Source of the DNA: Candidatus Scalindua sediminis
GTDB taxonomy: Bacteria; Planctomycetota; Brocadiia; Brocadiales; Scalinduaceae
Assembly (NCBI GenBank): GCA_008636105.1
Contig: VSDH01000010.1
Coordinates: 1 to 64,000, forward strand
DNA: 64,000 nucleotides
Direction: 5' to 3'
The translations under genes and the position numbers were made by a program. The notes under the pieces were generated by a model. It was not told the DNA's origin. It was given only the letters and a program-made list of their open reading frames with translations, and did no database searches. Each line of letters opens with the position of its first letter. Positions within the stretch are counted from its first letter, which is position 1. Shown one piece after another: positions 30,384 through 41,774 of the stretch.

Positions 30384-32870
30384 TCAATAAAAAACTTCGC
30401 CCTGCCCCAAAGTAGTTTTCAACTTAACGCTATTAATATACGCTTCAGAACCTTCTCTCGTCTCTACAAGAAACGTCGCAATAATAAAACTATTTACACA
30501 AGTTACACTGCTGTATCTACCTTTTGAATCTTTAAATGTATATAACGCACCAGCATATGTAATTTTTTCTCCCCATGATTTTCTTAACTCTATGAAATTC
30601 TGAAATGATTTCTTTGCTATTGATTTATTGCGGTATTTGACTATCAAGATTTTAAAAGGCAAACTGCTTTTCTTAGATTTATATTCAGCAACGACTGCGT
30701 CTGTTTGCTCACTGAGGTTTAATATGTTTTCATCTGTAAACTTGTCAAAAATATAAATGTTATCAAGGATTATCTTTTCATGAAAAAATTTTGAACTTCC
30801 CTGAATATAACCCTCTTCCGGCAAATATCCTACGATAGTTGGCACATAGACTTTGCCAGAAAGAATATTATTTGCTATAGAAGTACCTATAAACGTTACC
30901 TCATCGGGGGTAATGCTTCCCATATACGGTTCAACACTTATAAAATATTTTCCCTCCCATATCCACAAATAGTTCTCGTATAAGGAAGCTTCATTTCCTA
31001 TCTTTATGTCCTGCCCAGCCCTGTCCTTCGTAAATACACCATAAGCATCATCAGAATTACCAAACTCCCATATATTTACCTTGATAGAATTTCCAGTATC
31101 CTTCAAGATATACGTCGACACGGATACTTGAACAAACGAATAAGACAAATATGTTTCGGCGCCACCATTTATATATTCAAAAAGTTTATCCTTACCGGCG
31201 TACACAATAGGCCTTCCTTTCCTTTGCCATCGGTCAATAGATTCAGGGAAAAAGTCACTTTCCGTTATATCAATCTCGCTGATCATTACTTGGGGTTGTA
31301 TTCCTTCAACAACTATTGCAGAACGTCCGGCCACAGGACAGACCTTTTCACAAAAACCGCATCCAATACAAGCTTCTTCCCTTACATATACCCTTCTTAT
31401 TTCTTTGCCGTTACCATGTGTATACGTATTGAAATGGATTGCTTTTGTTGGGACAGGACAAACCTCTTCACACACCCCACAGCTGACATCTTCCCAATTT
31501 TTATCTAAATCCGGCAATCTTGCATAGCCTACCCAGGGTATACATCTATTCCTGTCTATTCTGGCCTTGCCTATTGCCAACCTTTGTTTCTTCTCTTTAG
31601 GAAGCTTTGTAATTGCTCCAGAAGGGCAAACCCTTGTACAAAGTACACAATCATGGGCACAATATCCAATACGCGGAATCAGTCGTGGAGTCCACATTCC
31701 GCTTAGGTCTGCCTCTAAAAGTGTCGGATGTAAACCATTTGTCTTACACACTCTCATACACTCGCCGCATCTTATGCATTTTGCCAAAAACTTGTCTTCA
31801 GGTAGCGAACCCGGGGGGCGAATAATACCAAGATTGCCCTCACTATTCTTCTTGTGAAAGTTTAACGATAAAAGTGGCGCTACAACCGCACTGGAAATAC
31901 ACGCCGTAATAAAACCTCTCTTTGTCAAACTAACAGGATCTTCTTGCTCAGGAGGCTGTTTAGGTGTAAATCTGATGGCTCCCGCAGGACAAATATCCTG
32001 ACATTTCATGCATAAAATGCATTCGCCTTCTTGTGTTTTCTTACCTGTATCATCAATAGCTCCCATCTTACATTCAACATTACATTTATCACACCCTTCA
32101 CAAATATTTTCTCCCACAACACGTTTGAAGAGCGACCAGTCTGAAAACAGAGACAGCAAAGCACCTAGTGGGCATAGATTTCTACACCAATATCTTTTAT
32201 AAAATAAACCCAAGGCAATAATTACTGAAAATATTATCAGGAAAACAAAATGCCCTCTGAAAAAAGGTGCATGCATTGCAAATAAAACCTTTTTTAAAAG
32301 ACTATGGATACCATCACTTACAAAACTTATCAGGTAAAATCCATGAAGAAAGTTGAAAAGCGAGTTAATTATAGAAATGAAATACGGATGAATAACAATG
32401 GTATACGCGTTAGTCACGATGCTGAGCGGATCAAACCAGCCAACCATCTGATAGCTTATAAATAAACTCAAAAGTAGAAAGGCTAACAAATAATATTTTA
32501 ATTTCTTGCCATCATAAATCTTATATGAGATTCTCCTCCTTTGCGCTTTAAATATCTTATCAGTAATATCTATGGTTGTTCCAAGGGGACACACCCAGCC
32601 ACAAAAGAAACGACCTAAAAATACTGATGCTATTAAGATGGCAATGGCTGGCCAATAATTAATAATAAATTCCCTTGCAGCCACCATTGCACCAATTGCA
32701 GAAAGGGGGCTTAGGCGAAGGAAAATGTTTACTGCTTTGTCTTTTTCTGCAATCGGATCGGCGTACAACAGTAGACAAATAAAAGTGATAAAGATAAGTG
32801 ATTGTACAATCAGTCTAATCTTGTAAGGTGTCGAACCCCTTTTTACATTTATATTGCTGTGTTCTGCCAT
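30384..32870 (-). CDS. Membrane polyferredoxin (NapH/NosR-like) with C-terminal DUF6599-like domain
   Basis: This is an 828-residue protein. Residues 1-240 hold about five membrane helices and two NapH/NosR-type motifs (GRFFCGWVCPLG and CRNLCPLGA). Then come about six [4Fe-4S] motifs: CEGCDKCNVEC, CILCMKCQDIC, CIRCGECMRVC, CAHDCVLCTRVC, CGVCEEVC and CIGCGFCEKVC. In the middle, TKRGFITACISSAVVAPLL looks like an internal twin-arginine or membrane segment. Residues about 570-828 match a DUF6599-like domain (YINGGAETYLSYSF). It is likely an electron-transfer hub between membrane and extracytoplasmic partners. The gene on the other side of the island, a Tat-exported DUF362 protein, is a plausible partner. 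Confidence 0.85.
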   Translation of the reverse strand: MAEHSNINVKRGSTPYKIRLIVQSLIFITFICLLLYADPIAEKDKAVNIFLRLSPLSAIGAMVAAREFIINYWPAIAILIASVFLGRFFCGWVCPLGTTIDITDKIFKAQRRRISYKIYDGKKLKYYLLAFLLLSLFISYQMVGWFDPLSIVTNAYTIVIHPYFISIINSLFNFLHGFYLISFVSDGIHSLLKKVLFAMHAPFFRGHFVFLIIFSVIIALGLFYKRYWCRNLCPLGALLSLFSDWSLFKRVVGENICEGCDKCNVECKMGAIDDTGKKTQEGECILCMKCQDICPAGAIRFTPKQPPEQEDPVSLTKRGFITACISSAVVAPLLSLNFHKKNSEGNLGIIRPPGSLPEDKFLAKCIRCGECMRVCKTNGLHPTLLEADLSGMWTPRLIPRIGYCAHDCVLCTRVCPSGAITKLPKEKKQRLAIGKARIDRNRCIPWVGYARLPDLDKNWEDVSCGVCEEVCPVPTKAIHFNTYTHGNGKEIRRVYVREEACIGCGFCEKVCPVAGRSAIVVEGIQPQVMISEIDITESDFFPESIDRWQRKGRPIVYAGKDKLFEYINGGAETYLSYSFVQVSVSTYILKDTGNSIKVNIWEFGNSDDAYGVFTKDRAGQDIKIGNEASLYENYLWIWEGKYFISVEPYMGSITPDEVTFIGTSIANNILSGKVYVPTIVGYLPEEGYIQGSSKFFHEKIILDNIYIFDKFTDENILNLSEQTDAVVAEYKSKKSSLPFKILIVKYRNKSIAKKSFQNFIELRKSWGEKITYAGALYTFKDSKGRYSSVTCVNSFIIATFLVETREGSEAYINSVKLKTTLGQGEVFY

Positions 32871-32892: not shown

Positions 32893-32930
32893 TTTAGATT
32901 TACGAATTACGATTTCAGATTTACGATTTT
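32893..32930. repeat. AT-rich repeat at left edge of the accessory island
   Basis: This stretch holds copies of GATTTACGA-type words. TTTAGATTTACGA at 32893-32905 is an exact reverse complement of 40780-40792 on the far side of the island. It is probably a dispersed AT-rich repeat that marks the edges of the inserted DNA. Confidence 0.5.
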
Positions 32931-33198: not shown

Positions 33199-33222
33199 AA
33201 AGGGGTCAAGTCCTTTCTTGAC
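33199..33222 (+). repeat. REP-like palindrome, left copy (inverted relative to right copies)
   Basis: AAAGGGGTCAAGTCCTTT matches the reverse complement of the tandem units after the transposase gene. Here it extends into a true hairpin, GTCAAG (33205-33210) with CTTGAC (33217-33222). Such repeats are the usual substrate of REP-associated tyrosine transposases. Confidence 0.75.
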
Positions 33223-33252
33223 TACATATAATCTGTTGGTTAAAATGAGGAA

Positions 33253-34239
33253 ATGTCACGACCATTACGAATAGAATTTTGTGGTGCCTGGTATCATGTA
33301 ATGAATAGAGGTGCTAACAACGCTAAGATATATTATGATAAAGAAGACTACACTTTATTCCTAACTGTTCTCAAGGAAGCTTGCAATTTGTTTAATGTAA
33401 CCATATCTGCATACTGCCTTATGACCAACCATTATCACATTCTTGCCAATACCCCTGAAGGAAACATTTCCCGCTTTATGAGGCATGTAAACGGAGTTTA
33501 TACGCAGAGGCATAACAGGAAACATGGAAAAGACGGCCCTTTGTTTAGAGGACGTTTTAAATCTGTATTAGTACAGGAGGATATGCATTTGATGGGTGTT
33601 GTGAGATATATCCATCTCAATCCAATTAAAGCAAAGATGGTAAAGAATATTAAAGATTTTAAGTGGAGCAGCCATAGTATATATTTAAAAGGAAAAAGTA
33701 ACGTTGCCTGGATAGATGTCGATTCTATATTGCACTTTTTTTCTAAAAATAAAATAGAGGCTATAAAAGAATATAAAGAGTATATGTCTCAAGATATTGA
33801 TGAAGAGGCAGAGGTATTTTACTCAAAGAAAAATCAAAGCTCCATATATGGAGATAATAACTTTATTGAAAAAATAAAGGAAATTTTTATAATTTCAGAT
33901 AAAAGGTCAAATATTGAAATAAAAGAAAAAAGAGTACTTATGGGAGAAGGAGTGTTAAAGCGAGTTAATATGGAAATTTGCAGAAAGTTTGGGGTCAGTG
34001 AAAAAAAGCTTTACCAGGGAAAAAGAGGAGAAGAAAATACGGCTCGTTTTTTTGCCATTACATTAGCAAGAGAGTTGTCCGGCCTTCGCATGCCAGAAAT
34101 TGCAGAACGTTATAAAAGTGCAAGCTACAGAACTGTGGGAACAATTTGTTTTCGTTTTAGTAAGAGAATGAAAGGTGATAAAAAATTACGAAATCAATAC
34201 AATTCACTCAAGCATATATGTAGTCATGGAAGGACTTGA
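33253..34239 (+). mobile_element. REP-associated tyrosine transposase (RAYT, Y1/IS200-like)
   Basis: This 328-residue protein begins SRPLRIEFCGAWYHVMNRG, typical of RAYTs. It has the HUH motif (H60-Y-H62 in TNHYHIL) and the nucleophile tyrosine (Y119 in RYIHLNP). The C-terminal third (about 230-328) looks like a DnaA-type helix-turn-helix. RAYTs cut and move single-stranded REP palindromes. The stop codon lies inside the first of three tandem repeat copies, and one inverted copy lies upstream, so gene and repeats move or spread as a unit. It sits immediately left of the integron cassettes. Confidence 0.92.
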
Positions 34240-34296
34240 CCCCTTTCCTTGGAAGGACTTGACCCCTTTCCTTGGAAGGACTTGACCCCTTTCCTG
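34228..34296 (+). repeat. Three tandem 23-base REP-like units
   Basis: Units at 34228-34250, 34251-34273 and 34274-34296 are identical except for the last base. Each carries GGACTTGACCCCTTTCC and is an imperfect palindrome (GGAAGG against CCTTTCC). They are inverted relative to the copy at 33199. The first overlaps the last codons of the transposase. Confidence 0.9.
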
Positions 34297-34345
34297 ACCT
34301 CATTATCTCTCTGCCAAACGGGTTAGCTTAGCTCAACCGTTATGT
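34297..34345 (+). repeat. Right half of an attC or attI site (start of cassette 1)
   Basis: GTTATGT at 34339-34345 is the reverse complement of ACATAAC at the left end of attC1, which marks it as the recombination core at which cassette 1 was inserted. The bases before it (TTAGCTCAACC) resemble the right arm of an attC. No matching left arm was found upstream, where the REP element lies. It may be a site truncated by the REP element or part of an attI. Confidence 0.55.
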
Positions 34346-34370
34346 TTAGGATTATTCAAAAGTTTAATCA

Positions 34371-36080
34371 ATGACAATAAAAAGCATAAACCTAAGAAAT
34401 ATCTACTCCTTTGGAAATAATGGGACTCCTGAATTAGAGGGCTTTGCACTATTCAATCTGTTTATCGGAAAAAATGGTAGTGGGAAAAGTAATGTGTTTC
34501 GAGCATTAGTCGCTCTTGATTTGGAGATAAAATATAATAAACCATATCAAATTTCCCTATCATCCAATATTTTCAACAAATCTATCCATAAATTTAAAGG
34601 TGGAAAAAACCCACAAGAAGAAAAGAAAAAAGATAGGGATTTCAGCATAGATTTGGAGACACATACTATTCATTTTGAGGATAGCATACATATTAAAGGT
34701 GACTACGCTGAACTACAAAAATCAGTTGAACATTTTGAATTATTTAGCAGTTTTGAGCATCTAAAAGAAAAGCTTATAAAGTTGAGTACTCATCCAGATA
34801 GAGAAATTTTACTAAGTTTTGCTTTATCTTATATATTTGGGGTACCAATAAAAATTCAAAATGCTGGAATTACTGAACGTTTTATGGAAGCTAAAGGAGG
34901 CAGAACAGGTCGTTGGGTAGACTTAGGACGTGTGGGCGGTCATCCAGAACTTAATTCTTGTGCATGGGCATCTGGTTACACAGCAGTGACAAATATTCTG
35001 TCACAGTTTCTTTTGGCAGTGGAGAAGGTAATCGTATGCATAGATGAACCCGAAATTAATTTGGAACCAAGAATTATTAGAAATCTAATGCGTGTAATAT
35101 TTTGGCTAAACTCATCTTTTGATCCTCATCATGAAATTACCATGTTGTTGTTACAATGGATTGACGAGAATCAAAAGGAATTTCAATTGGATAAGAAAAA
35201 AATACAGCTCTATATCCATTATTTGGAAAATAATGTTTTTATCGGAAGACAAATATTTATCAGCTCACATTCTCCAGCTCTTATTAATCAATTTATAAGC
35301 TATAAAGATTATTGTGCTATTTATGAATTTGATGTGTGTAGTGAATTAAATAGCTATATCTCTCCTAACACCCAACAAAAAGGTGTACTTATAGAGCAAA
35401 ATTGCTTAGTTTCAGTGGTAAGAAAAATTCCTATAAATGAATATCCTCACAGTATTTTAGATAACCTTGGCGCCCATGGTTCTGATCTTCTTCAAACAAA
35501 TGGTATTATATGGGTCGAGGGACCAAGTGATGTGATTTATATTACAAAATGGCTTGAAATGTATGCAAAAGAAAACAAAAAACCAATTTTAAAGCAAGGC
35601 ATTGATTATGAGTTTCAAATGTTCGGAGGGACACTCTTGGATAGCTTGTGCCTAATAAAAAAAGGATTAAGTGAAGAAAAGGAATATAAAAAACTTGTAA
35701 GCATGTTTAGCTTTAGTAGGAATGCATTTGTAATTACCGATAGTGACGCAATAAAAAAAGATAATGGAGAAATTGTTGATCAATCTAACTTTAGAAATGC
35801 AAAAGAATTTATTGCTAACCAATTTGATGAACTTCCAGAGGGATACAACGTTGGTCTCTGGTATAAAGAAAACAATACAGAAGTTAGAACATTAGAAGAT
35901 TATCTTGATGCTGATACGATTAAGGCTGTTGGCATAAAGGTGGGGAGTCCAACAAAAAAAATATATGCGCAGAGAGTTGTTGACAGTTGGGGAGTCGATA
36001 AAAAACTTAGTGCCTTTGAGCATGAACTTGAAAAGGAAATCAAGTCCTTTGACGACACAATAAGGACTTGGAATGGATAA
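34371..36080 (+). CDS. OLD-family ATPase with TOPRIM nuclease domain (cassette 1)
   Basis: This 569-residue protein has an SMC/AAA_21-type ATPase with Walker A GKNGSGKS (33-40), Walker B CIDEPE (D225, E226) and the SSHSPALINQF switch. It is followed by a TOPRIM domain with E383 (WVEGPSD) and DxD (D457, D459). OLD-family nucleases act in phage exclusion, and similar proteins are the effectors of Gabija, PARIS and retron systems. Here it stands alone in one cassette, with no UvrD-like or other partner. The start ATG has no good Shine-Dalgarno. Target and trigger are unknown. Confidence 0.88.
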   Translation: MTIKSINLRNIYSFGNNGTPELEGFALFNLFIGKNGSGKSNVFRALVALDLEIKYNKPYQISLSSNIFNKSIHKFKGGKNPQEEKKKDRDFSIDLETHTIHFEDSIHIKGDYAELQKSVEHFELFSSFEHLKEKLIKLSTHPDREILLSFALSYIFGVPIKIQNAGITERFMEAKGGRTGRWVDLGRVGGHPELNSCAWASGYTAVTNILSQFLLAVEKVIVCIDEPEINLEPRIIRNLMRVIFWLNSSFDPHHEITMLLLQWIDENQKEFQLDKKKIQLYIHYLENNVFIGRQIFISSHSPALINQFISYKDYCAIYEFDVCSELNSYISPNTQQKGVLIEQNCLVSVVRKIPINEYPHSILDNLGAHGSDLLQTNGIIWVEGPSDVIYITKWLEMYAKENKKPILKQGIDYEFQMFGGTLLDSLCLIKKGLSEEKEYKKLVSMFSFSRNAFVITDSDAIKKDNGEIVDQSNFRNAKEFIANQFDELPEGYNVGLWYKENNTEVRTLEDYLDADTIKAVGIKVGSPTKKIYAQRVVDSWGVDKKLSAFEHELEKEIKSFDDTIRTWNG

Positions 36081-36101
36081 AATTGAAAGCTTTGGAAAGT
36101 C

Positions 36102-36182
36102 ACATAACAAAGCAAATTCACTCGGACGTCAAAAAGTGCCGCTACACTCCGCTTTTGCCACCGGTGATTTGCGACGTTAGAG
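36102..36182 (+). repeat. attC: attC site 1
   Basis: The left core ACATAAC (36102-36108) and right core GTTAGAG (36176-36182) bracket arms GCAAATTCAC and GTGATTTGC, which pair with one extrahelical base. That unpaired base gives integrase its strand choice. The variable loop is about 40 bases. It closes cassette 1. Confidence 0.9.
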
Positions 36183-36191
36183 CTCTAAAAC

Positions 36192-36971
36192 ATGGACAAA
36201 ATAACTACCGAAGAATTGGACAATCTCGAAACGGAAGAGTTGGTATCGAGAATGGATGAAGCTCTTTCTTCGCCATATTGGAGTAGAATGGGCAATAAAA
36301 TTCTCAAGCTTAATGTCTGCAGCCTATACGAATCTGCCACTGTTAAAAAGTTTGATCCTGTTTTTCAGCGTAAGGTGGCATATAAGTCTTTTGGCTTCTT
36401 GCTTCAACTCCAATATTCAGAGTTGTCCTCTTCCGCCAATTTTTTCCGTCTTCCAGAGAAAGACGAAAATGGAGCTAAGCAGATTTATTGGGCTGCACGA
36501 AATCAATGGACAATCGTCTCTAGCCGAATGGCATTTGAATATTTCATGCATTTGACCTATATGCTTGGCAGTGGTAGCGATTTCAAATCAGGGAAGAGCG
36601 CTATCAAGAAATTCAAGAACTGGCTGAAAGAGCGTGAAAACCCATACTCGTATTTTACAATTAGCGCCGCGCGGGCAATGCAATTTGATAGAAGCAAACG
36701 TAGTCCAGAGGTCCACGCCACTACAAAGTTGGTACGCCGCATATTGTTAATGACCGCAAGTGATATTGATAATGATGTTTTTCAATTAATCAACATATTA
36801 AAGAATCAATGGCAGTTCATCTTAGACATTGCGCATCAACGCGAACCCAATGGGTGGGTATCATGCGGAAATGTAGATGACGATAAAGAATGGTATGGAA
36901 TTTGGGAGTCTAAAGATTATGATGCCATTTCAAAAAAAATTGACGAAGTTTTTGTGAATTATGAAAATTGA
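36192..36971 (+). CDS. Cassette 2 protein, unknown, possibly HEPN-like
   Basis: This 259-residue, mostly helical, soluble protein starts nine bases after attC1 with no Shine-Dalgarno. I do not recognise a named family. A single R-x4-H pattern (R170-S-P-E-V-H175) resembles the HEPN ribonuclease motif, and the surrounding helices (SRMAFEYFMHLTYM before it, LVRRILLMTASDI after it) would fit such a fold. This is suggestive only. The coding region ends just before attC2. Confidence 0.7.
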   Translation: MDKITTEELDNLETEELVSRMDEALSSPYWSRMGNKILKLNVCSLYESATVKKFDPVFQRKVAYKSFGFLLQLQYSELSSSANFFRLPEKDENGAKQIYWAARNQWTIVSSRMAFEYFMHLTYMLGSGSDFKSGKSAIKKFKNWLKERENPYSYFTISAARAMQFDRSKRSPEVHATTKLVRRILLMTASDIDNDVFQLINILKNQWQFILDIAHQREPNGWVSCGNVDDDKEWYGIWESKDYDAISKKIDEVFVNYEN

Positions 36972-36979
36972 AAGGCGAG

Positions 36980-37040
36980 CTCTAACAAGCCCTTTGCAGC
37001 GGAGCGCAAAAAACCGCGCCCGCTGAAAAGCACGTTAGGT
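36980..37040 (+). repeat. attC: attC site 2
   Basis: The left core CTCTAAC (36980-36986) is the reverse complement of the cassette 2 start, and the match extends to ten bases (GAGCTCTAAC with GTTAGAGCTC). The right core is GTTAGGT (37034-37040). Arms CTTTGCAGCGG and CCGCTGAAAAG pair with an extrahelical G. A short attC of about 60 bases. Confidence 0.92.
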
Positions 37041-37071
37041 TCTGAAACTTTATTTTTTTTAAAGGGGAGTC

Positions 37072-37599
37072 ATGTCAATTAATAATAGTGAACTTTACCA
37101 ATCTAAAGGGAATTCCGTATATTTATGGAAGTTTAGATCACAAGAACTCTTTGATGCTGCTTTTCTAGTTTGGGAGGGTAAAGTAATAAGAACAAAGCTC
37201 CCGAACGGTGAAATTGATGAGACTCACGAACTGTATAGGCCAGCGCAATTATTAATGGGTATGAGTCTTGAGGTTTTGCTTAAAGGCTTAATTGTTCAAA
37301 AGAATCCTGATCTAATTGACAGTGACAAACTACCGAAAGACCTAAGCACACACTCATTAGAGAAGTTATTCGAAGATGCCAGTATTAATCTTGAGGACAA
37401 TGAAGACGAGTTGAACTTTATAAGAAAACTATCTGATGCTGTGGAGTGGGTCGCCAAATATCCAATACCTCTTCATGCGAACCACTTGAAACAGCCAAAA
37501 CATAGAAGTAGTAGTCTAATGATAAGAAATGATTTGGATTTTGAAAGGTTTAAAAAGCTCAGAACCAAAATCGAATCTTGCTTTGCCGAAGAAACCTAA
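37072..37599 (+). CDS. Cassette 3 protein, HEPN-like helical protein
   Basis: This 175-residue soluble helical protein has a good ribosome binding site (AAAGGGGAG). The segment PAQLLMGMSLEVLLKGLIVQ followed by HSLEKLF resembles the first helices of HEPN/AbiV-like proteins (A-x-SLE-LLKG ... H-L). The usual C-terminal R-x4-6-H motif was not found, so catalysis is doubtful. The stop codon (TAA at 37597-37599) lies inside the left core of attC3, so the cassette is as compact as possible. Confidence 0.75.
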   Translation: MSINNSELYQSKGNSVYLWKFRSQELFDAAFLVWEGKVIRTKLPNGEIDETHELYRPAQLLMGMSLEVLLKGLIVQKNPDLIDSDKLPKDLSTHSLEKLFEDASINLEDNEDELNFIRKLSDAVEWVAKYPIPLHANHLKQPKHRSSSLMIRNDLDFERFKKLRTKIESCFAEET

Positions 37600-37652
37600 C
37601 AAGGCAAATACAGCCGACGCAAAAAACGCACGGCTGATTTGCGACGTTATAC
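37594..37652 (+). repeat. attC: attC site 3
   Basis: The left core ACCTAAC lies at about 37594-37600 and the right core GTTATAC at 37646-37652. Arms GGCAAATACAGCCG and CGGCTGATTTGC pair almost perfectly with one extrahelical A. The left core complements the start of cassette 3 (GTTAGGTT). Confidence 0.92.
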
Positions 37653-37668
37653 CTATTAGAGAATAAAA

Positions 37669-38337
37669 ATGGATGCAGCACTGAAAAAGCAAATAACCAA
37701 ACAACTTAGTGACCTCTCAAATGAGTACAAGCAATTTCGGGCAAAGTCCCAATATGATGATGCCTCTGATGTAATTTCAAACACTGAAGTCAGGCGTTTA
37801 AAAACACAGGCGTTATCAGCTATTGAGAGATCGACCGGAAGGAACTCTGTATATTATGAGCAAGCACAGGCAGTATTAAACAAGAAAGAGCATGATTACA
37901 ATCATTTGGCTTCCTTAATAGGAATTGTTGATTCAGCAAATCAAGATATTCAAGCTGGGTACTTAAAAAGCATTGAAGAATTGATACATGGTGATGTATT
38001 CACTGATTTCTTAGAGATGGCTGAACACCTTGTTAATAGCAGTTATAAAGATGCTGCAGCAGTGATAGCTGGCAGCACATTGGAAGCACACATTAAGCAT
38101 CTCTGTTCAAAATTTCATATTCCAACTGATAATAATGGTAAAAACAAAAAAACAGATACCCTTAATTCGGAGCTAGTTAAGAACAATGTATATACCAAAT
38201 TGGATCAAAAGAATGTAACAGCATGGCTTGGTCTACGGAACAATGCAGCACATGGAGACTATCATGAATATGACAAACAACAGGTCAGGTTGCTTATAAG
38301 TAGTATTAGAGATTTCATAACTAGAAACCCTGCCTAA
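37669..38337 (+). CDS. Cassette 4 protein with C-terminal HEPN-like domain
   Basis: This 222-residue protein has a charged helical N-terminal part (1-100) and a C-terminal HEPN-like domain. The latter contains AGSTLEAHIKHLC and the R-x4-H motif R190-N-N-A-A-H195 (LGLRNNAAHGDY), the catalytic signature of many HEPN RNases in abortive infection and toxin-antitoxin systems. No cognate antitoxin (MNT or similar) lies in the cassette. A stand-alone RNase or RNA-binding defence protein is a reasonable inference. Confidence 0.8.
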   Translation: MDAALKKQITKQLSDLSNEYKQFRAKSQYDDASDVISNTEVRRLKTQALSAIERSTGRNSVYYEQAQAVLNKKEHDYNHLASLIGIVDSANQDIQAGYLKSIEELIHGDVFTDFLEMAEHLVNSSYKDAAAVIAGSTLEAHIKHLCSKFHIPTDNNGKNKKTDTLNSELVKNNVYTKLDQKNVTAWLGLRNNAAHGDYHEYDKQQVRLLISSIRDFITRNPA

Positions 38338-38347
38338 TGCAAATAAT

Positions 38348-38419
38348 GTATAACAAATCGCTGCACTGGATTCTTACTACGCTACGCTCCGTAAAAACCA
38401 GTGAGTTCAAACGTTAGAT
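38348..38419 (+). repeat. attC: attC site 4
   Basis: The left core GTATAAC (38348-38354) complements the cassette 4 start GTTATAC. The right core is GTTAGAT (38413-38419). The inner arms CACTGG and CCAGTG pair; the outer arms are less conserved than in the other sites. The loop contains TACGCTACGCTCCG. Confidence 0.85.
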
Positions 38420-38431
38420 GTTGGAGAAATA

Positions 38432-39334
38432 ATGAGTATCGGTAAAACAATAAGGATATATCTGGATGATGGCTCAGTTTCTGGAATACGTCATGCTGAG
38501 ATAGTGAACTGGACAGGACAAGCAGTTTCATCACCACGCTCAAAAATAAAATCACTCACTTCATGGAGCGAATCAAAAAAACCAGGGGTATACTTTCTTT
38601 TTGGTGTAGATGAAGAAAGCGGTGAAGATGCGGTTTACATTGGTGAGGCTGAAAATGTATTTGAAAGATTGCAGAACCACTTGGATAATAAAGATTTCTG
38701 GAATGAAGTTGTTTTCTTTACAAGTAAAGACGAAAACCTAACAAAATCACATGTTAAATATTTAGAATCGCGTTTAGTCCAACTCGCAAAGCTATCTTCG
38801 AGGCATGTAGTTTTAAATGGTAATGAACCACAGTTGCCAGTATTACCGAGAGGTGATCGCGATGCAATGGAGGAATTCATTTCAAACCTAAAAATACTAT
38901 TGGGTGTTGTAGGTTACAAGACACTTGAAAGCCTTGAGAAAAAATCTCCCAAAGACATTCTTGAACAAGATAGCATCGCTGCAATACCATTAAATGAAGA
39001 AGTCATAGAGTTAAATTTGAAAGTAAAAGGCATTAATGCCAAAGCACATTTAACTGATGAAGGTATTGTTGTTTTAGCCACATCTCATGTATCAGAAGCG
39101 GTTAAAGATAGTCTTTCTGCTGGCTATAAAAAACTCAGAGAGCAATTAATCCAAAATGGCACTCTAGAAAAATCTAACAGTGGGTATATTTTTACCAAAA
39201 ACCAGCTATTTAAAAGTCCATCACAAGCAGCAGCAATCATAGTTGGATATTCAATAAATGGGCGGCATCATTGGCAGACCACGAATGGCGTGACATTAAA
39301 ATCAATTGAAGAATCAAATATAAAAAGCATCTAA
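38432..39334 (+). CDS. GIY-YIG nuclease with DUF4357 domain (cassette 5)
   Basis: This 300-residue protein has a GIY-YIG fold at about 50-120 (GVYFLFG, VYIGEAENVFERL), with likely catalytic R79 and E112. A C-terminal DUF4357-type domain follows (about 230-300, ending SINGRHHWQTTNG). GIY-YIG/DUF4357 proteins often travel with mobile and defence loci, but their substrates are mostly unknown. A good ribosome binding site (TTGGAGAAA) lies just after the attC4 core. The stop is in the left core of attC5. Confidence 0.88.
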   Translation: MSIGKTIRIYLDDGSVSGIRHAEIVNWTGQAVSSPRSKIKSLTSWSESKKPGVYFLFGVDEESGEDAVYIGEAENVFERLQNHLDNKDFWNEVVFFTSKDENLTKSHVKYLESRLVQLAKLSSRHVVLNGNEPQLPVLPRGDRDAMEEFISNLKILLGVVGYKTLESLEKKSPKDILEQDSIAAIPLNEEVIELNLKVKGINAKAHLTDEGIVVLATSHVSEAVKDSLSAGYKKLREQLIQNGTLEKSNSGYIFTKNQLFKSPSQAAAIIVGYSINGRHHWQTTNGVTLKSIEESNIKSI

Positions 39335-39417
39335 CAAGGCAAATACACTCGGACGGCAAAAAACGCCGCTCGTTTCTCGCTCTGCTTTTTGCAGCCGGTG
39401 ATTTGCGGCGTTAGGGC
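39328..39417 (+). repeat. attC: attC site 5
   Basis: The left core CATCTAAC (39328-39335) complements the cassette 5 start GTTAGATG. The right core is GTTAGGGC (39410-39417). Arms GGCAAATACAC and GTGATTTGC pair with an extrahelical A. It is very similar to attC1 and attC3, suggesting that these cassettes were made by one integron pool. Confidence 0.92.
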
Positions 39418-39437
39418 TCGAAACAACAAATTACCTT

Positions 39438-40559
39438 ATGAAAATTGGCAGAAATCAACCTTGTTGGTGCGGTTCAGGAAAGAAATTAAAAAAATGCCAT
39501 TTGAATCGCAAAGAACAAGAAGAAATAAAACCATGGGAGGCAGCGCAAAACCTAAGAAGAGCTTTTGGGGCTAAATATTGCTCTGTCCCTGACAATCTAA
39601 AAGCTGAGTGCAAGGGGAACATCGTCAGAGCGCATACAGTCTCAAAAAGCATGAATTTGAAAAAAATTCAAAGGAACGGACATATATATGCCTTTATCCC
39701 TAGTTTCGAAAATTTAACAAAAAATAACGGAGTATTACATCCAGAGCTTTATGGCATCAATAAAGCATCAACCTTTACTGGGTTTTGTGCTCAACATGAC
39801 AAAGTAATATTTTCTCCACTTGAAGATAAAGAATTTGTTGGTAGCAAAGATCAATGCTTCCTGCTGGCATATAGAGCTCAAGCCAGAGAATATTTTACAA
39901 AAAAAAGTTCTGCAAACCTAATGGACTTTATGAAGCAGGCCGACCGAGGGAAAAGCCCTCTTGATCAACAAGACATCCAAAGTATGGTTTTTCATCACTC
40001 GCTTGGTGTTGATGCAGGAATGAGGGATGTAACAATTTATAAGAACAAATTGGATACAATTTTAAATACAAAAAACTTCAACAATATTAATGCGTTTATA
40101 ATAAATTTCCAAAAAATACCTTCAGTGTTTTGCAGTGCTGGGATTTTCCCAGAGTGTGACTTCCAAGGCAATCAATTACAAGATTTATTCGACCTAGAAA
40201 CAACTCCTGACTTGCTTACTTTTTCGACCATAGCGACAAAAAATGGTGGGGCAGTTGTCTTTTCCTGGCTGAACGATGATGACAGCAAAGGGAATTGCGA
40301 AAAATTTATAAACAGTCTCAAGACGGTAGCTCCTGAGAATATCACCAGTTCTTTAATAAGATTTTTTTTCGAATTTTGCGAAAATGTTATCATGGAACCG
40401 ACTTGGTGGGAATCGCTGGACAAACCGAAACACGAGAGTTTAGTGAACCGTCTTGCCAATGCTGCTTCCCTTTTGGAGGAAAGACAAGCAGACTGTTTAT
40501 GTACTGACAACCTAACTCTCGATGACTGGGAGTTAAGTGGAATTCAAGAAATAAAGTAA
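39438..40559 (+). CDS. Cassette 6 protein with N-terminal SEC-C zinc motif, otherwise unknown
   Basis: This 373-residue protein starts with a SEC-C metal-binding motif (RNQPCWCGSGKKLKKCH; C9, C11, C20, H21), as at the C-terminus of SecA and in many stand-alone proteins. The remainder (30-373) is not recognised; CVPDNLKAEC-like and FCAQHDK segments suggest further cysteine/histidine sites. No membrane segment. The Shine-Dalgarno is weak. It is the last cassette; its stop is five bases before attC6. Confidence 0.8.
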   Translation: MKIGRNQPCWCGSGKKLKKCHLNRKEQEEIKPWEAAQNLRRAFGAKYCSVPDNLKAECKGNIVRAHTVSKSMNLKKIQRNGHIYAFIPSFENLTKNNGVLHPELYGINKASTFTGFCAQHDKVIFSPLEDKEFVGSKDQCFLLAYRAQAREYFTKKSSANLMDFMKQADRGKSPLDQQDIQSMVFHHSLGVDAGMRDVTIYKNKLDTILNTKNFNNINAFIINFQKIPSVFCSAGIFPECDFQGNQLQDLFDLETTPDLLTFSTIATKNGGAVVFSWLNDDDSKGNCEKFINSLKTVAPENITSSLIRFFFEFCENVIMEPTWWESLDKPKHESLVNRLANAASLLEERQADCLCTDNLTLDDWELSGIQEIK

Positions 40560-40563
40560 AGAA

Positions 40564-40647
40564 GCCCTAACCAAGGTGTCAACCTGACCAGAAGATGAAA
40601 CTAGGGACAGCGACTGTTTTTCGTTGGGGTTAGTTGGAGGGTTAGAA
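40564..40647 (+). repeat. attC: attC site 6, terminal and diverged
   Basis: The left core GCCCTAAC (40564-40571) is an exact complement of the cassette 6 start GTTAGGGC. The right core GTTAGAA (40641-40647) and arms TCAACCTGACC and GGTTAGTTGGA pair imperfectly. No further cassette follows, so this marks the right end of the array. Confidence 0.75.
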
Positions 40648-40703: not shown

Positions 40704-40792
40704 AGAGATTCTTCGGTCGTTACTCCCTCTAGAATGACATATTGGTGCAAATCTAAATTCGTAAATCCCAAATCCCAAATCGTAAATCTAAA
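40704..40792. repeat. Dispersed repeats at right edge of the island
   Basis: 40704-40740 resembles the AGATTCTTCG...AGAATGACAT element also seen near 49073. 40751-40792 is an AT-rich array of CCCAAATC and CGTAAATC words whose last 13 bases are the inverse of 32893-32905. The stop codon of the DUF362 gene lies inside this repeat. Confidence 0.6.
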
Positions 40793-41774
40793 TACTTATT
40801 TCTTCAAAGCCCCTTAATTTAAAATCGATTTCTCCCAATCCGGCCTCATATGATTCCTGGATAAAACCTATGTCCTTACCTTCATATCCAAACATGGTGG
40901 CGCCATAGGAATCTACCGCTACCGGATCAGTACTTATTATTAATCTCCTCGCATTTTCAAAAGTATTATCAACGTCTTCTAATCTCCCCCCGGTAGGTCC
41001 ATGTCGCTTTAAAATTCTAAATGCATCTAGTACAGTAAGGTCAACCTTAACCACTTTATTGAGGTCTGCTATTTTTGGATGTATATCCTTATGAAGTGAA
41101 CCCCTATTTCCACCGACCATACCTAAAGTATTCTTAAGGGCCATGGATAAACGGGAAGTACTATGCTGCTTAGCTATAGGTACGTTAATCAAAACATCAA
41201 CTTCATCCTGGTATATTAATTCCTCATAGAACGACCATGAATTGAGTACTTTACCACCCGGAATCTTAACATCCTTAAATAGCCTTCTATTAACGAATCT
41301 GACGTCTGCTCCAGCTTCTCTTGCAGCCTTTTCAATTCCACTATTTATATACGAAGGACCTGGATTAATTGCGCAGGTATGATCAAGCACTCTTACCCTA
41401 TTGGCTCCCGCTTCTACACACATTCTGACCAAAGCGGCAACAACAAAGGGGTTTGTATTCACTGCATACTCAGGTTGCCTATCCCATGCTATGTTCGGTT
41501 TGATAACAACCTTGTCTCCCCTAGAAACTAGTTTTTCCATACCGCCGAGGGCCTTAATGCCTCTTCGCATCATTTCCTTTATAATTGAACCTTCGTCATT
41601 TTTCTCGTTCATGCCACCATGTACTACAACCAAATTCTTTCTTAATTCATTTTCCTTAAACCTCTTTAAAGTTTTCTGTCTCTCAATAGAACCTAAATAT
41701 GACAGACCATAGAGTCCTGCACCAATGGCAGCACTAGCTTTGAGAAAAGTCCTTCTTGATATTTTGTTTTTCAT
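40788..41774 (-). CDS. Tat-exported DUF362 protein
   Basis: This 328-residue protein has a twin-arginine signal at the N-terminus (SRRTFLKASAA, followed by a hydrophobic stretch). A DUF362 domain follows, with KPNIAWD, LDHTC, NVPIAKQHS, LKNTLGMVGG and DPVAVDSYG. DUF362 proteins are often encoded beside, or fused to, ferredoxin modules and are thought to act in redox reactions; no reaction is established. Here the ferredoxin module (30384-32870) lies on the same strand on the other side of the island, which suggests a split operon. It lies 103 bases after ftsY. Confidence 0.9.
   Translation of the reverse strand: MKNKISRRTFLKASAAIGAGLYGLSYLGSIERQKTLKRFKENELRKNLVVVHGGMNEKNDEGSIIKEMMRRGIKALGGMEKLVSRGDKVVIKPNIAWDRQPEYAVNTNPFVVAALVRMCVEAGANRVRVLDHTCAINPGPSYINSGIEKAAREAGADVRFVNRRLFKDVKIPGGKVLNSWSFYEELIYQDEVDVLINVPIAKQHSTSRLSMALKNTLGMVGGNRGSLHKDIHPKIADLNKVVKVDLTVLDAFRILKRHGPTGGRLEDVDNTFENARRLIISTDPVAVDSYGATMFGYEGKDIGFIQESYEAGLGEIDFKLRGFEEISI

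Follow-up and report, generated by a model that had tools for sequence, protein, structure and literature searches.

A cassette array without adjacent integrase in the anammox bacterium Candidatus Scalindua sediminis, probably split from a resident integron

The cassette array and its surroundings

The window analysed here is a stretch of 64,000 nucleotides (64 kb) from one contig of Candidatus Scalindua sediminis, hereafter C1, in a draft genome of 2.96 Mb (71 contigs, 93.6% complete). Between positions 34371 and 40559 it contains six open reading frames on the same strand (+), each followed by a candidate attC site. The features of the region are as follows, with the matches on which they rest; R1 and R2 are the covariance models described below.

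30384 to 32870, minus strand: FeS protein gene (4Fe-4S/DUF6599; Pfam), left neighbour of the insertion
32893 to 32908, plus strand: 16-base inverted repeat, left copy, TTTAGATTTACGANTT (pattern search)
33202 to 34290, plus strand: REPtron with a Y1 transposase CDS at 33253-34239 (PF01797, NF047646 and REP positions)
34300 to 34345, plus strand: right half of an attC of the ~126-base family type, with the right core GTTATGT at its end (HMM from other genomes)
34371 to 36080, plus strand: cassette 1 gene, predicted AAA ATPase and TOPRIM-like protein (OLD/retron-Eco8-effector-like nuclease; PF13304, 50.7 bits)
36102 to 36182, plus strand: attC1 (R2, 37.8 bits)
36192 to 36971, plus strand: cassette 2 gene, product without family (no Pfam or NCBIfam match)
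36980 to 37040, plus strand: attC2 (R2, 28.3 bits)
37072 to 37599, plus strand: cassette 3 gene, product without family (no Pfam or NCBIfam match)
37594 to 37652, plus strand: attC3 (R2, 39.5 bits)
37669 to 38337, plus strand: cassette 4 gene, weakly HEPN-like (PF18735, E 0.0026, below cut-off)
38348 to 38419, plus strand: attC4 (R1, 36.0 bits; R2, 37.0 bits)
38432 to 39334, plus strand: cassette 5 gene, DUF4357 protein (PF14267, 67.5 bits; PADLOC PDC-S14, 367.6 bits)
39329 to 39416, plus strand: attC5 (R2, 44.0 bits)
39438 to 40559, plus strand: cassette 6 gene, N-terminal SEC-C motif (PF02810, 38.1 bits)
40564 to 40647, plus strand: putative attC6, with a valid left core and unrecognised arms (9-base core match; no R1 or R2 match)
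40777 to 40792, minus strand: 16-base inverted repeat, right copy (pattern search)
40788 to 41774, minus strand: DUF362 gene, right neighbour of the insertion (PF04015, synteny)

Tandem in arrangement and without an adjacent integrase, the cassette array is a CALIN. A profile search of C1 for an integron integrase gave no match to TIGR02249, and the array thus lacks the adjacent intI and attI of a complete integron. The preliminary description of this DNA had already proposed the CALIN label, which the attC cluster and the missing integrase bear out, and its coordinates for genes and cores are confirmed; the half attC at the left edge was absent from it.

The DUF362 and FeS genes are directly adjacent, with a gap of about 10-30 bases, in three relatives (G001, G003 and G004), and the array together with the REP transposase is therefore an insertion. 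The 16-base sequence TTTAGATTTACGANTT occurs in exact form five times in the genome, and a pair of these copies, inverted with respect to each other, exactly borders this 7.9-kb insertion. In three further relatives (G002, G010 and G014) the same junction holds other insertions, that of G010 including a gene followed by an attC, and it is possible that the junction is an insertion hotspot. Across several Scalinduaceae (L158, L159 and L163) the inserted sequences differ, and one of them carries an attC and an OLD-like nuclease.

Several of the captured genes have predicted functions suggestive of anti-phage defence, the weak HEPN match of cassette 4 among them. Besides its Pfam match, the cassette 1 protein resembles the AriA and ATPase-Toprim entries of PADLOC and, weakly, NF038234; its product probably acts in phage defence. 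The cassette 5 protein corresponds to the PADLOC candidate defence family PDC-S14. Its homologues are annotated as belonging to the GIY-YIG nuclease family and are also found on plasmids, and full-length relatives occur in four of the 59 related genomes, at just 39-44% identity. When the 6.3-kb array was compared with these 59 genomes at the DNA level, almost solely attC sites were matched (77-91% identity, each beside other sequence), the only other match being one 25-base REP-like string and never a whole gene. Since the attC sites recur in relatives while the genes change, the units behave as cassettes.

The attC sites

Each left core is complementary to the first bases of the cassette to which it belongs, as had been claimed from the sequence (7-10 bases): the match extends over 7, 10, 8, 7, 8 and 9 bases for cassettes 1 to 6, and over 4-5 bases only when the start of the next cassette is taken instead. 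Among all 720 permutations of cores against cassette starts, the true order alone reaches the observed total of 49. The R cores (RYYYAAC/GTTRRRY) have AAC and GTT at all six sites.

The sites were searched for with two covariance models. R1 was built from 10 attCs: one came from Ca. Scalindua rubra, the other nine from sites next to IntI in non-anammox bacteria. Run over the full window, on both strands and with filters off, it ranked attC4, attC3, attC2 and attC1 in places 1-4, all on the bottom strand, followed in fifth place by the half site at the left edge. With R2, built from 75 attCs of which none is from this genome, the five best matches in the 64 kb were attC5, attC3, attC1, attC4 and attC2, again all on the bottom strand, and the next-best match in the window scored 13.7 bits. 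The corresponding E-values range from 1e-4 to 2e-8, but self-built models yield only approximate E-values, and more weight lies on the score gap and the strand. attC1-5 fit a model of 13 pairs with a bulged column (imperfect L arms, extrahelical bases, bottom strand), and are mixed in sequence, with pairwise identities of 61-86%.

The arms of attC6 were matched by neither R1 nor R2 in searches of the whole window. At 40604-40620 this site carries GGGACAGCGACTGTTTT, a REP-like string within a 25-base stretch that recurs in relative G010, and the site may be a disrupted one. The preliminary description counted six attC sites, whose arms would pair with single extrahelical bases, and suggested that a covariance model should recover at least five. 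With the models built here five were indeed recovered, and the extrahelical bases hold for these canonical sites (attC1-5) but not for attC6; because both models miss it, the count becomes five good sites and one doubtful. An Rfam search of the window returned no match. A motif scan demanding full R''/R' pairing within one site overlooked real attCs, and a relaxed version gave raw counts not above those of shuffled sequence, hence the use of covariance models.

Integrons elsewhere in the genome

The genome contains one intact integron integrase, on contig C14 (161338-162717; L009:16338-17717, minus strand), which scores 450.8 bits against TIGR02249 (cut-off 265). It aligns with the solved structure of a Vibrio IntI, 2a3v, over chain residues 8 to 317, a span that includes the IntI-specific insert and the catalytic motifs, and it possesses both this insert and the catalytic residues of tyrosine recombinases. 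Its reading frame of 459 residues has about 145 extra N-terminal residues resembling a second SAM-like domain. Long intI frames (about 440-570 aa) are recurrent in Brocadiales, and near full-length relatives exist in Nitrospirota and Kiritimatiellae. The integrase gene is adjoined by two divergent cassettes, carrying a T5orf172/GIY-YIG gene and a DUF6602 gene; the attC of the former scores 48.8 bits.

A second, degraded integron lies on contig C28 (L011:1-2884). It comprises a C-terminal integrase fragment, two cassette genes (one in an HNH/HTH cassette, one in a small cassette) and a 129-base attC (49.7 bits), with a REP transposase at the contig end. Genome-wide, R2 found 19 attC candidates at E up to 1 on ten contigs, many of them with an open reading frame ending at the attC and a proper cassette start, often as single cassettes. 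The term 'integrase-less' therefore holds for the locus on C1 but not for the genome.

A split attC site

An attC type of about 126 bases is common to relatives of this bacterium, and the C14 array and the window array are each bounded at one edge by part of such a site. The C14 array ends with a left part of 82 bases (C14:164663-164744), the left core of which, GCATCTAAC, matches the start of the DUF6602 cassette, GTTAGATG. The window array starts with a right part of 46 bases (C1:34300-34345). In an HMM of the 126-base type, built from eight complete sites of other genomes, the C14 edge covers model positions 2-80 (45.4 bits) and the window edge positions 88-126 (22.5 bits, E 1e-5). Joined, the two halves cover positions 2-126 with 82.5 bits (E 3e-24), whereas the single complete copy in this genome, on contig C27, reaches 60.6 bits. 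The joined site is about 127 bases long, the length of the family, and the breakpoints of the two halves coincide. A genome-wide search with it returned a single left half, a single right half and, at 80% identity, the full copy on C27.

The assignment of the halves to each other rests on their homology to complete sites of the family type and on the coinciding breakpoints, not on duplex energy: the energy of the C14 and window halves (-8.8 kcal/mol) is weaker than that of some other pairs and does not single out the partners. Taken together, these observations suggest that one attC was split and that its complementary pieces now lie at the edges of the window array and the C14 array. A search via the MobB/Hdr neighbours found no empty site for the C14 integron, whose other flank is not syntenic.

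REP elements at the broken ends

Both attC halves run straight into REP-like repeats. The repeat types differ between the two sides, with GGGGTCAGACC-type units on C14. In the window, the REP transposase matches PF01797 (43.2 bits) and NF047646 (71.2 bits, cut-off 80), and is surrounded by one REP unit in reverse orientation at 33202 and three forward 23-base units at 34232, 34255 and 34278. In Brocadiaceae, 10-kb regions around attCs (L207-L226, in G039, G037, G026, G030, G042 and G053), 200 kb in all, contained 8 REP transposases, and 400 kb of control regions contained 2. This is a density about eight times higher near attCs, with controls that are arbitrary, and both elements may simply gather in variable regions. 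The REP repeats capping both broken ends and the excess near attCs in relatives raise the idea that REP-associated transposases, enzymes that work on single-stranded hairpins, cut integron arrays at folded attCs and so scatter CALINs and single cassettes over the chromosome, a role that we regard as conceivable yet rather unlikely.

Integrons in anammox bacteria

The genome encodes hydrazine synthase alpha above the model cut-off, as none of 14 control genomes does, and the same family includes Ca. Scalindua rubra; the anammox host supposed in the preliminary description is thus confirmed. An integron integrase above cut-off is present in 26 of the 59 Brocadiales relatives and attCs (E up to 0.001) in 50 of them. 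The search for intI elsewhere, which had been proposed as a check, accordingly succeeds twice, with the full-length protein on C14 and with these relatives. An array is not unexpected in this lineage, contrary to the first impression, the more so since integrons in Planctomycetes have already been published (PMC2426708, PMC3108266, PMC8352920). A literature search found no dedicated report on integrons in anammox bacteria or Scalindua.

In one family, f2, none of the nine genomes (G017, G020, G023, G025, G027, G029, G031, G033 and G035) has an intI above cut-off, and each has 0-1 attC match, in contrast to the other families of the order, which makes f2 a useful negative control for the attC search. 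Hydrazine synthase was found in all three f2 genomes tested for it.

Origin of the array

The array is probably the broken-off continuation of the resident C14 integron, as judged from the sequences at its edge. Cassettes would have been captured one by one at the attI of the resident integron, giving an ancestral order of intI, GIY-YIG cassette, DUF6602 cassette, the attC now split, and window cassettes 1 to 6. The array would later have been cut inside the loop of one attC, with REP elements now capping both ends, and its distal part would have ended up in the DUF362/FeS junction; relocation could have taken place in either direction. In principle attC1-5 could still be substrates of the resident IntI in trans: the enzyme would bind their folded bottom strands, excise cassettes and re-insert them at attI. 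The original proposal, in which IntI once acted in trans or the integron platform was lost, is not the best reading: an intact IntI is present on C14, and the attC halves of the window array and the C14 array complement each other. The split itself is deduced from halves on different contigs, not seen as an event. Two independent breaks might coincide if REP elements favour the same loop position and, the 126-base attC being recurrent across the family, it is possible that the halves come from two different sites.

Construction in place is the nearest competitor, with a small share of the probability: the resident IntI, acting in trans, would have inserted successive cassettes at a secondary site, the DUF362/FeS junction. 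The enzyme exists, the attC candidates scattered over ten contigs include many single cassettes with proper boundaries, and G010 has a gene followed by an attC in the very same junction. The left edge, however, is no simple insertion point but consists of a right attC half of the family type next to REP units, and the complementary half stands at the end of the integrase-linked array on C14. The same half site bears on the idea that a ready-made CALIN, unrelated to the C14 integron, was acquired horizontally within a larger element with inverted repeats and a REP transposase. The 16-base repeats around the whole 7.9-kb insertion would agree with such an element, as would the mixed sequences of the five attCs, which are unlike the 126-base type common in the family; but the half site at the edge is of precisely this type, the inverted repeats are short, and a transposase known to act on them was not seen. 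Horizontal acquisition is accordingly improbable, about half as probable as construction in place.

Two further explanations would dispense with a biological break or with the sites themselves. In a draft of 71 contigs, with both breaks beside repeats, the halves and their separate contigs could be artificial and the integron really one piece. Yet the REP types differ between the two sides, leaving no long shared sequence over which an assembler could jump, and both breaks are interior to contigs, with flanking genes in the same order as in relatives; an assembly artefact is very improbable. Least probable of all, to the point of being negligible, is that the sites are due to chance or are ordinary terminators or REP hairpins. 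Hairpins after genes do occur in many genomes, but here a gap of about 15 bits separates the sites from the next match, all are on the correct strand and in register with the cassette starts, and attC matches are many in IntI-bearing relatives and nearly absent from the f2 genomes. Breakage of the resident C14 integron is thus the reading that we favour.

Whether a CALIN arose because intI was lost, because cassettes were inserted in trans or because an integron broke is usually a matter of guesswork. One attC cut in two would provide direct sequence evidence for breakage, and it names both ends, so that the event becomes testable. Integrons with partly defence-like cargo also appear as common features of anammox bacteria.

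Comparison with known systems

CALINs coexisting with a distant intI are known from Xanthomonas (PMC12444791) and from archaeal MAGs (PMC9668308), and defence cargo in integrons is known as well (PMC12444791). The present array is like these CALINs in having an intI elsewhere in its genome and in being mobilisable in trans in principle; it differs in its anammox host and in the specific split attC that ties it to the resident integron. The C14 integron shares with sedentary chromosomal integrons a full-length intI, divergent cassettes with attC sites and a recurring family attC of about 126 bases. It differs from them in its small size, two cassettes remaining, and in being broken up over the genome; the piece in the window has no integrase. 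The REP element of the window resembles a REPtron (PMC8266576) in having a Y1 transposase CDS between inverted REP units and a GTAG beside a unit, with the difference that it directly abuts a broken attC. The type of array is therefore already known, whereas the trace of its origin is unusually clear, and the explanation shifts to a split resident integron.
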